This document shows, piece after piece, positions 30,861 to 38,462 of a DNA stretch of 38,997 bases; the first letter of the stretch is position 1, and every line of letters begins with the position of its first letter. A model generated the notes under the pieces. That model was not told where the DNA came from. It did no database searches and was given only the letters and a program-made list of their open reading frames with translations. Location of the stretch: positions 300,628 through 339,624 of the forward strand of contig NZ_BMLV01000003.1 of NCBI RefSeq assembly GCF_014645495.1, given 5' to 3'. This DNA is from Cloacibacterium rupense. Its GTDB lineage: Bacteria; Bacteroidota; Bacteroidia; Flavobacteriales; Weeksellaceae. The translations under genes and the position numbers were made by a program.

Positions 30861-31367
30861 ATGAAGAGTACAAGAACTACAATGAGACTTCTACACCGTT
30901 ACATCGGTTATTTTATGGCAGGAATTATGGCTGTTTATGCGATAAGCGGCGTTTTATTAATCTACAGAGATACCGATTTTCTGAAAAAGGAGAAAAAAAT
31001 TGAGAAAAAGATTGATGCTAACATTCCTTTAGACAAACTAGGAAAAGAATTAAAAATAAAAGGGCTAGAAGTAAAAGAACAAAAAGGAGATGTAGTTATT
31101 TTCAAAGAAGGAACATACAATTCTAAAACTGGCGAAGCAAAATATACAAAAAAAGAACTACCTTTTTTCTTAAAAAAAATGACAGAACTACACAAATCTG
31201 ATTCTAAACATAAACTTTCTTTACTAAATACAATATTCGGAATTTCCCTCCTATTCTTCGTGGTTTCCTCGTTCTGGATGTTCAATATAAAGTCAAGAAT
31301 TTTCAAGAACGGAATGATTATCACTGCAGTAGGAATCATTTTGGCATTGTTTTTGATTTTAGTATAA
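30861..31367 (+). CDS. PepSY-associated transmembrane protein
   Basis: 168 residues. The N-terminal TTMRLLHRYIGYFMAGIMAV with helix YFMAGIMAVYAISGVLLIY (17-35) matches the PepSY-associated TM family, which includes the His of the HRYIG motif that may ligate haem. A periplasmic segment of ~35-105 is lysine-rich with IDANIPLDKLGKELKI, PepSY-like. Then a second His (TELHKSD), and two more helices (LLNTIFGISLLFFVVSSFWMF and MIITAVGIILALFLILV). Larger relatives (PiuB, FoxB) reduce or strip iron from siderophores at the inner membrane; this is a short version next to a siderophore receptor, so a role in iron release is likely but inferred. Confidence 0.82.
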   Translation: MKSTRTTMRLLHRYIGYFMAGIMAVYAISGVLLIYRDTDFLKKEKKIEKKIDANIPLDKLGKELKIKGLEVKEQKGDVVIFKEGTYNSKTGEAKYTKKELPFFLKKMTELHKSDSKHKLSLLNTIFGISLLFFVVSSFWMFNIKSRIFKNGMIITAVGIILALFLILV

Positions 31368-31397: not shown

Positions 31398-31427
31398 TTG
31401 CAAATTAAATAAATATTACTATCTTTG
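31398..31427 (+). promoter_or_regulatory. Orphan promoter of the candidate small RNA
   Basis: TTG (31398-31400), exactly 19 bases, TATCTTTG (31420-31427). No + strand reading frame lies downstream before the next terminator, so it is not a promoter for an evident protein gene. Confidence 0.7.
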
Positions 31428-31433
31428 CAAAAA

Positions 31434-31618
31434 ATTTTACTACACTTTATAAGTGATTGAAAAATTGATTATTAAGTATTTACAAACATACCACTAATCA
31501 ATTTAACAAGATTTAAGTATTTTTAATAAAAATTAAATATATTTAATATAATTTAACATTTTTTCATTTGTGTTTTTGGGCGGGATAAGATATTTAATAT
31601 TTTGTCTCGCCATTTTTT
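31434..31618 (+). ncRNA. Candidate small RNA, promoter-to-terminator unit
   Basis: About 185 bases between the orphan promoter and a strong intrinsic terminator, with no ATG in any + strand frame; the longest alternative is a 14-codon GTG frame. Structure seen: hairpin CACTT-TAT-AAGTG (31443-31455); a 10-bp perfect stem AAATTGATTA / TAATCAATTT (31462-31471 and 31495-31504) with a 23-base loop; a 16-base palindrome ATTAAATATATTTAAT (31532-31547); and the terminator. It fills the 305-base gap between the PepSY gene and the ABC-F gene. I do not recognise the family; flavobacterial 6S RNA (6S-Flavo) and Flavo-1 are candidates that I cannot test. Confidence 0.6.
31579..31618 (+). terminator. Intrinsic terminator of the candidate small RNA
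   Basis: A 15-bp stem (31579-31593 with 31597-31611; begins GGCGGGAT, ends GTCTCGCC, with three G-T pairs and a TTA loop) then ATTTTTTAT. On the minus strand no T run follows, so it acts on + transcripts. Confidence 0.85.
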
Positions 31619-31621
31619 ATA

Positions 31622-31650
31622 CAAAAAAATCCGACTTTAAACGCCGGATT
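31622..31650 (-). terminator. Terminator of the ABC-F gene
   Basis: Stem AATCCG / CGGATT (31628-31633, 31645-31650); on the minus strand the hairpin runs into seven T residues. Confidence 0.75.
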
Positions 31651-31672: not shown

Positions 31673-33613
31673 TTACTCTATCTGCATCGCTACTTCTTCC
31701 CAATCTTGCATGGTTGCTGTCAATTCCTTTTTAAGAGCTTCATACTTTTCTAATTCTTGTTGAGAAGGGTTGGTTTTGCCAAAAATTTCTTCTAACGAGG
31801 CAATTTCTCTTTCATAATCAGAGATTTTTTCTTCTAATTTTTTTAATTTATTTTGAAGATTTTTTTGCTCTTTACTTATAAAGTTTGATTGGGTTTGGTG
31901 TGGTTTCACATCGTTTGAATGAGTTTGATTTTGTTTTTCAATTTTTGGCTCAACTTCATTTTGGCTCAGTTTAGATTTCTCCGCAGAAATTTCTCTGATG
32001 GTTTCTTTTTGTCGATATTCTAAGTATTCATTAATATTCCCTAAAAACTCCTTCATAGAACCATCTCTAAACTCGAAAATCTTATCGCATAATCCTTGCA
32101 AAAATTCTCTATCGTGAGAAATCACAATCACCGTTCCTTCAAATTTCTGAAGAGCAATTTTGATAATTTCTTTAGATTGAATATCTAAGTGATTGGTAGG
32201 TTCGTCCATAATCAAAGTATTGAACGGACGAAGTAATAATTTACAAAGCGCCAAACGGTTTCTCTCACCACCAGAAAGCACTTTTGTCTTTTTTTGCACC
32301 GCTTCACCTGTAAAAAGGAAACTTCCGAGCAAATCTCTTACTCTAGGTCTGGTTTCTTCTGTAGCAGCATCTTCGGCTTCTTGCAGTACGGTTTTATCTG
32401 GCGTAAGAACTTCCTCTTGATTTTGTGCAAAATAACCAATATTTACATTGTGACCAAGATTCCATTCACCTGTATAATCTTTTATATCACCTGCTAAAAT
32501 TTTGGCTAGCGTAGTTTTACCTTGTCCGTTTTGCCCAAGAAGTGCAATTCTGTCGCCTCTTTGCACAAAGAAATCTACATTGTCAAAAACCTGATGATTT
32601 CCGTATTTTTTACCTAATTTGTTAGCTTCGAAGATTACTTTTCCAGGAACTACACTCTGCACAAAACGGATATTAAATTTAGAAACATCATCATTCTCTA
32701 CTTCAATTCTTTCAATCTTATCCAATTTTTTAATCAAAGACTGTGCAAAAGCAGCTTTAGTAGCACTCGCACGGAATTTATTGATGTTATCTTCCATCTG
32801 CTTAATTTCCGCATCCTGATTTTTCTTCGCCTGAATTAGTTTTTCTTTTCTATCTTTTCTTAGCTCTAGATATTTGGTATAATTGGCTTTATAATCATCT
32901 ACTTTTTTATTGTTAATATCAAAAGTTCGGTTACAAACCGCAGTCATAAACTGCTTATCGTGACTTACCAAAACAATAGCGCCGTTATAATCCTTCAAGA
33001 AATTTTCTAGCCAAATGATAGATTCCATATCCAAGTGATTGGTAGGCTCATCTAAAAGGAGTAAATCATTATTTTGAAGGAGCAGTTTCGCCAATTCTAT
33101 TCTCATTCTCCATCCGCCAGAAAACTCATCGGTAACTCTATCAAAATCTGCCGCTTTGAAACCCAAACCTAGCAAAACTTTTTCTACATCACCTTCTAGA
33201 TTATACGCATCGTGATGATGAAGAATATCATTTAGGTCGGTCATTCTATGGATTAAATCATGGTAAGCATCAGATTCATAATCTGTTCTGGTTGCTAATT
33301 GATGGTTAACATCTTCCAATTCTTTTTTCCAAGCATTAATTTGCTCAAATGCTTGTAATGTTTCATTCCAAACGGTTCTACCTTTTACAAAATCTAAATC
33401 TTGCTTTAGAAAACCAATCGTAATGTTCCCTTCTGGCACAATATTCCCTTCGAAGAAAGTAATTTCTCCGGAAAGCATTTTGAGAATAGTAGATTTACCT
33501 GCACCATTTTTACCAACAAGACCTACTTTATCATCTTTTTTGATAGTGAAATTTACATCTCTAAAAAGATAATTTCCTGAATGGTGAAGACCAAGACTTT
33601 GAACTGAAATCAT
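31673..33613 (-). CDS. ABC-F family ATPase (Uup/YdiF-like)
   Basis: 646 residues. Two ATP-binding domains: the first with GLVGKNGAGKSTILKM, EFSGGWRMRIELAKLL and LLLDEPTNHLDMESI; the second with ALLGQNGQGKTTLAKI, LSGGERNRLALCKLLL and LIMDEPTNHLDIQSK. Between them is the P-site tRNA-interaction linker (KDRKEKLIQAKKNQDAEIKQ, KAAFAQSLIKKLDKIE). After residue ~555 comes a charged, Gln/Lys-rich spacer and a C-terminal coiled coil (NKLKKLEEKISDYEREIASL). No membrane helices: ABC-F proteins act on the ribosome. Some relatives protect against antibiotics, others help translation of difficult mRNAs; the Uup-like layout favours the housekeeping kind. Upstream on the strand is tRNA-Gln. Confidence 0.94.
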   Translation of the reverse strand: MISVQSLGLHHSGNYLFRDVNFTIKKDDKVGLVGKNGAGKSTILKMLSGEITFFEGNIVPEGNITIGFLKQDLDFVKGRTVWNETLQAFEQINAWKKELEDVNHQLATRTDYESDAYHDLIHRMTDLNDILHHHDAYNLEGDVEKVLLGLGFKAADFDRVTDEFSGGWRMRIELAKLLLQNNDLLLLDEPTNHLDMESIIWLENFLKDYNGAIVLVSHDKQFMTAVCNRTFDINNKKVDDYKANYTKYLELRKDRKEKLIQAKKNQDAEIKQMEDNINKFRASATKAAFAQSLIKKLDKIERIEVENDDVSKFNIRFVQSVVPGKVIFEANKLGKKYGNHQVFDNVDFFVQRGDRIALLGQNGQGKTTLAKILAGDIKDYTGEWNLGHNVNIGYFAQNQEEVLTPDKTVLQEAEDAATEETRPRVRDLLGSFLFTGEAVQKKTKVLSGGERNRLALCKLLLRPFNTLIMDEPTNHLDIQSKEIIKIALQKFEGTVIVISHDREFLQGLCDKIFEFRDGSMKEFLGNINEYLEYRQKETIREISAEKSKLSQNEVEPKIEKQNQTHSNDVKPHQTQSNFISKEQKNLQNKLKKLEEKISDYEREIASLEEIFGKTNPSQQELEKYEALKKELTATMQDWEEVAMQIE

Positions 33614-38334: not shown

Positions 38335-38462
38335 GGGCAATCCCTCATTCCAAAGCAATGCCAACGCTTATTCGGGTCGGGCTATCCGTTACAATCTTTT
38401 TTTTCAAACGCTATTCCTAGCAAAAAAAAGGATTTCCACTACTATCCCTATTGCAAAGTGAC
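38335..38462. repeat. Palindromic intergenic element, copy 2
   Basis: After the sucC terminator: GGTCGGGCTATCCGTTACAA with TCTTTTTTTT (38375-38404) faces AAAAAAAAGGATTTCCACT and ACTATCCC (38422-38447) as an imperfect inverted repeat around TCAAACGCTATTCCTAGC. It matches, in wording, an element I recall from many flavobacterial intergenic regions, and it is related to the weaker copy at 4128-4288. Both copies directly follow a terminator between convergent genes. Confidence 0.6.

Follow-up and report, generated by a model that had tools for sequence, protein, structure and literature searches.

Introduction

In Bacteroides thetaiotaomicron, GibS and the 14 FopS small RNAs (sRNAs) pair with sequence close to start codons and are associated with RbpB, an RRM-1 protein (PMC7366714, PMC11697453) reported to prefer single-stranded regions of noncoding RNAs (PMC11697453). 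The sRNAs are intergenic Bacteroidota sRNAs (14 paralogues in the case of FopS) with one conserved single-stranded seed, situated in the 5' part, and a Rho-independent terminator (PMC11697453, PMC7366714). Rfp18 of Flavobacterium psychrophilum is a flavobacterial sRNA whose predicted mRNA-pairing region is its third stem-loop (PMC9723704).

Post-transcriptional regulation in the Flavobacteriales is otherwise little mapped. To our knowledge Bacteroides lacks Hfq, and the genus studied here shows none. In enterobacterial sRNAs, the 3' module bound by Hfq has a U-rich stretch immediately ahead of the terminator hairpin with its U tail.

Here we analyse a locus in a stretch of 38,997 nucleotides from Cloacibacterium rupense (the window). 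Like the GibS and FopS genes, it would specify an intergenic sRNA with a single conserved seed and an intrinsic terminator; by contrast, its conserved U-rich stretch abuts the terminator and is also found in mRNA 3' UTRs. Compared by description, GibS and FopS may be the known systems nearest to it in mode of action; their seed lies at the opposite end of the RNA. The position directly 5' of the terminator recalls the enterobacterial Hfq module, but here the sequence is fixed and none of the seven genus genomes examined has an Hfq match. Rfp18, also compared by description, belongs to another genus and differs in the placement of its pairing region. A conserved seed occurring in free-standing sRNAs and 3' UTRs across many genera of one family, together with its complement, would constitute a regulatory code that is concrete and cheap to test, and the module is a candidate ligand for a single RRM protein.

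Results

A probable transcription unit with conserved ends and a drifting body

The preliminary description had proposed a free-standing sRNA, reaching from a promoter to a terminator with no ATG between them, in a gap of the window. The gap lies between a PepSY-like gene (30861–31367, plus strand) and an ABC-F-like ATPase gene (31673–33613, minus strand; ABC-F is the name we presume for it), the latter having a separate terminator-like site at 31650–31628. The proposed signals are present: TTG at 31398–31400 is separated by exactly 19 bases from TATCTTTG at 31420–31427, the plus strand is free of ATG from 31428 to 31618, a perfect 10-bp stem encloses a 23-base loop, and a 15-pair stem with a 3-base loop (31579–31611) is followed by T6. 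The features are as follows, the 5' end of the RNA near 31433 being placed from the position of the promoter.

31398..31427, plus strand: promoter (TTG, 19-base spacer, TATCTTTG); from sequence, and as TTG-N19-TAnnTTTR in 7/7 genus genomes
31433..31618, plus strand: proposed sRNA of about 185 nt; from promoter and terminator positions and synteny in 7/7 genomes
31433..31504, plus strand: fast-evolving 5' part, including the 10-bp stem 31462–31471 / 31495–31504; identity 0.52, alignment columns 80–140
31532..31547, plus strand: 16-base palindrome, a weak hairpin with paired changes between two clades; from the alignment, by eye
31559..31577, plus strand: U-rich module TTTTTTCATTTGTGTTTTT, proposed seed; invariant in 7/7 genomes, with TCATTTGTGTTTTTR recurring before terminators in the family
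31579..31618, plus strand: intrinsic terminator (15-bp stem, loop of 3, T6); from a sequence scan

Between 30900 and 32000 there are three terminator-like sites, as against a mean of 0.3 in shuffled sequence. Sigma-70-type promoter matches in the same interval are at chance level (8 vs 6.2, sd 3.1), the model used being one that does not cover the type of promoter claimed. The fold of 31429–31618 is more stable than dinucleotide shuffles (z −5.1), and z falls to −2.2 when the terminator is left out (31433–31577), so that much of the folding signal belongs to the terminator.

The unit is present in synteny in all seven genus genomes examined, its own included; two of these fit the public records of Cloacibacterium normanense IMET F (G005) and the metagenome-assembled genome UBA1937 (G004), and we refer to the group as Cloacibacterium-like. 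The promoter ends in TTTG in six of them and in TTTA in one. Mean pairwise identity among the seven starts at 0.68 ahead of the promoter, rises to 0.85 within it, drops to 0.52 in the 5' part, recovers to 0.74 in the middle and reaches 0.97 at the 3' end (columns 201–271), within which the module is invariant. When the whole unit was used in a DNA search, 147 of 296 family genomes gave a match at E ≤ 0.001; only the seven genus genomes reached E ≤ 6.6e-26, the next best value being 5.1e-8, and the matches listed outside the genus are short pieces covering the promoter, the AT-rich middle or, in a few cases (e.g. G083), the module.

The internal hairpins, offered earlier as signs of a folded RNA, exist in the sequence and yet do not form a conserved core. 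By eye, the 10-bp stem has a shorter version with a paired change in G004 only and is absent from the other five relatives. The palindrome reads TTAAAT/ATTTAA here and TTAGAT/ATCTAA in most of the other clade, with G004 deviating; its hairpin potential appears from the alignment to be maintained by paired changes. As judged from these sequences, the conserved core is the U-rich module together with the terminator, and the fast-changing 5' part probably serves as a spacer or contributes to stability or specificity.

A free-standing sRNA is the best explanation of this pattern because the promoter and the 3' end are conserved in 7/7 genomes while the part between them drifts. At the sequence level, the unit has what is expected of an sRNA gene, namely a promoter and an intrinsic terminator of its own, both conserved. 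We consider it very probable that 31433–31618 is a real sRNA gene, and the comparison of genomes supports the proposal of a free-standing sRNA.

Comparison with known RNA families

The earlier suggestions of 6S-Flavo and Flavo-1 were not borne out. 6S-Flavo (RF01685), likewise a flavobacterial noncoding RNA, gave no covariance-model match at the locus; instead, each of the seven genomes has a single match to this family at a different locus, scoring 50.7–56.1 bits, below its cut-off of 85. In the genome of the window, that locus is the only match at E ≤ 1, and one of 14 control genomes also had a below-cut-off match. At these scores, the 6S-Flavo RNA of the genus would be missed by annotation at the Rfam cut-off. 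Flavo-1 (RF01705) matches the window only at 38371–38456 on the minus strand. This RNA has 25 matches in the genome from which the window comes, and over 100 in two of the 21 family genomes searched.

No Rfam 15 family reached its gathering score in the gap, the best weak match being 19 bits (E 3.1). Among the matches listed in a search of titles and abstracts of the open-access literature on flavobacterial small RNAs, no description of this RNA family was found, and the letters of the motif occur in the open-access literature in unrelated context only.

The 3' end is a portable module found before terminators in the Weeksellaceae

The conserved 3' end amounts to a portable module, UUUUUUCAUUUGUGUUUUU, placed directly 5' of a terminator. 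With a covariance model of the 69 bases at the 3' end, 29 of the 296 family genomes gave matches (E ≤ 0.01). The better ones outside the genus keep (U)CAUUUGUGUUUUU with a different hairpin behind it, and some of the weakest lack (U)CAUUUGUGUUUUU; terminator stems vary while the module is constant.

In 60 family genomes, TCATTTGTGTTTTTR has 106 matches (summed by hand, in 37 genomes) as against one for the reversed pattern. A terminator follows 70 of the 103 sites examined, compared with 37 of 5000 random positions in the same loci; the figure is 68/101 once identical contexts are removed and 7/15 at further family loci. The terminator test is a simple stem search that misses long loops (L413, L422 and L437, which by eye resemble A-rich sRNAs). 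Elsewhere in the order, 128 genomes from other families contain the 15-base pattern 22 times and its reverse 4 times; of the 22 sites, 20 were examined, and none is followed by a terminator.

Immediately 5' of the motif, TTTTTTCA is found at 55 of the 70 terminator sites and at 2 of the 33 others, giving the terminator class a longer consensus of a T-rich run and then CATCATTTGTGTTTTTR. The RNA at 31433–31618 represents a minority form in which TT replaces CA. A search of 84,980 species genomes for TTTNNTCATTTGTGTTTTTRGGC, which may omit genomes very near the window, returned 18 stretches: 13 from Chryseobacterium, 2 from Bergeyella and 1 each from Cruoricaptor, Cloacibacterium and UBA1937, all of which we take to be Weeksellaceae. 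Only 12 of the 18 passed the terminator test.

Exact copies number 0–8 per genome. Protein genes, too, can have the module at their 3' end, as clpB does (L127, Pfam ClpB_D2-small), and among 20 other motif loci the only Rfam 15 matches at gathering score are two tRNAs. Spread by phage was considered and rejected: 59 viral stretches carry TTTNNTCATTTGTGTTTTTR and 38 its reverse, with a terminator at 1/59 and 0/38, respectively. The one viral motif stretch with a terminator behind it by the stem test is L297 (IMGVR_UViG_2645727825_000001).

A putative second group of sRNAs ends in the module

What looks like a second group of free-standing sRNA genes has a promoter-like TA..TTT, a short 5' hairpin, the module and a terminator. 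We chose 28 of the 70 terminator sites by eye as its representatives, each from another genome; at least four more (L124, L146, L151 and L187) resemble them. In the alignment of the 28 loci, 22 consecutive bases over the module show no variation except in a single column, itself nearly invariant, and compensatory changes are seen at 13 of 17 predicted pairs.

At E ≤ 0.001, a model built from this alignment has matches in 148 of 197 family genomes, including the 28 that supplied it, and in 23 of 33 genera, with up to eight matches per genome; the other 49 genomes have none. The weaker matches may be other RNAs that have the module alone in common. G000 has one match, distinct from the RNA at 31433–31618. 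The group member in L137 gave 15 weak Rfam matches, the best at 25.3 bits and none at its gathering score.

The complement of the module and its predicted pairing

The exact complement of the module core, AAACACAAATGA, occurs 116 times in the seven genus genomes, a count that includes U-type loci read on the other strand, and the reversed control twice. G000 has 124 AMMMMMAAATGA sites and 61 of the reversed class. By hand count, 15 of the first 100 have the AAACACAAATGA form, while the other nine two-C forms total 21; seven of these 15 are U-type terminator loci, leaving eight against a mean of 2.3.

At 157 distinct sites of the 12-base core (loci gathered by motif, the core-only ones from G000, G006 and G001), the U form precedes a terminator in 90 cases and the A form in 15, and the remaining 52 show neither arrangement. 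The corresponding backgrounds are 47 and 97 of 4000. Some A-form sites resemble, by eye, small RNAs with promoter-like sequence (L404, L413/L422/L437, L424, L425/L431). In L410, L421 and L438, from three genus genomes, AAACACAAATGA lies a few dozen bases past a common GCTTTTCTTCGCCATTTTTCA-like stretch. A frame of at least 60 codons opens at the motif ATG at 8 of 33 non-terminator sites, as compared with 3 of 70 terminator sites. Inspection by eye of the start-codon matches revealed no recurring target gene, the loci of G000, G006 and G001 beginning different-looking proteins.

For 14 A-rich sites selected for complementarity, predicted duplexes with the seed region have energies of −16.8 to −21.1 kcal/mol. 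Compared with 200 mononucleotide shuffles, the mean was beaten in 14/14 cases and the best in only 9/14. The seed is only partly open in the predicted fold: its mean unpaired probability is 0.55, as against 0.40 for the whole RNA, and three of its bases lie at 0.05–0.15.

As regards protein partners, each of the seven genus genomes has one match to RRM_1 (PF00076) and none to Hfq (PF17209). In terms of protein presence only, this is the constellation of the GibS and FopS systems, an RRM-1 protein without Hfq. The single RRM_1 protein also raises the strongest alternative to pairing, in which the module is bound by a protein, such as this one or an RNase, with a role in protecting or processing 3' ends, its complementarity being incidental. 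The U-rich composition of the module, its constant placement ahead of terminators, both in sRNAs and in 3' UTRs of unrelated mRNAs, and the reported preference of RbpB for single-stranded regions of noncoding RNAs (PMC11697453) would all suit such a site. Nevertheless, a protein site alone does not predict that the exact complement should be over-represented and stand before terminators at 15 of 157 sites, and we regard this alternative as rather unlikely, if worth keeping in mind.

Discussion

We lean towards the view that the sRNA acts by base pairing through the module. A noncoding RNA of about 185 nt would be transcribed from the locus, and the module at its 3' end would serve as the seed. 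Its partners in annealing would be A-rich sites with the pattern AAAACACAAAUGA(UG)AAA, lying at translation starts and within complementary small RNAs. Annealing would block ribosome loading or, in the reverse direction, the seed RNA would itself be titrated; the RRM-1 protein, rather than Hfq, would assist pairing. On balance, the reading that best fits the data is a group of base-pairing sRNAs and 3'-UTR RNAs, not described before, that is widespread among the Weeksellaceae and has a common terminator-proximal seed. A more speculative extension, which we put forward tentatively, is a network that has a single short sequence and the complement of that sequence as its building blocks. The seed would stand before the terminators of U-rich sRNAs and 3' UTRs, and A-rich small RNAs, some with promoters of their own, would carry the exact complement before theirs as decoys of translation starts, setting seed, decoy and mRNA start codons in competition with one another.

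Since 70 of 103 sites stand directly before terminators, the module could be imagined to be a special terminator or a DNA-level signal with no regulatory role as RNA. This is improbable, because exact copies are few in any genome (0–8) and because the carriers include free-standing genes with promoter-like sequence and a covarying 5' hairpin.

More improbable still is that the RNA is the leader or attenuator of an mscS-like gene that follows it in relatives, retained here after the gene was lost. A plus-strand ORF of about 182–206 codons (counted from start to stop or from stop to stop) does lie downstream of the terminator in 5/7 genomes, and the one tested, that of L004, matches MS_channel_2nd. 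However, the gene is missing behind the RNA in G000 and G004, where the RNA is retained with its 3' end nearly unchanged, and many other transcripts end in the same module.

A short peptide, whether read from a non-ATG start or on the minus strand (a 26-codon frame opening ATGGCGAGACAA, by eye), is a scarcely credible product of the locus: a minus-strand ATG frame crosses the conserved end in G000 and G004, and the plus-strand frames of G001 and G005 have the same nine terminal residues, but by eye the five other relatives have ACG in place of the minus-strand ATG, the terminator and its T run are oriented to the plus strand, and no plus-strand frame of at least 12 codons is common to the seven genomes, four of which have none at all, so that we reject a conserved peptide.

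The motif also occurs in other arrangements. In L238 (G080:C3:835326-837600), at about 990–1240, four exact copies form a tandem array at intervals of 76–77 bases, with near-copies (TCATTTGTGCTTTTAGAATTCTC) in between and no terminator found by the stem test; similar repeats are present in L159 (G058). In L119 (G006:C1:2140025-2142039), one copy of the motif core precedes the terminator and a second lies within the terminator stem, 8 bases past the stop codon of a 76-codon frame.
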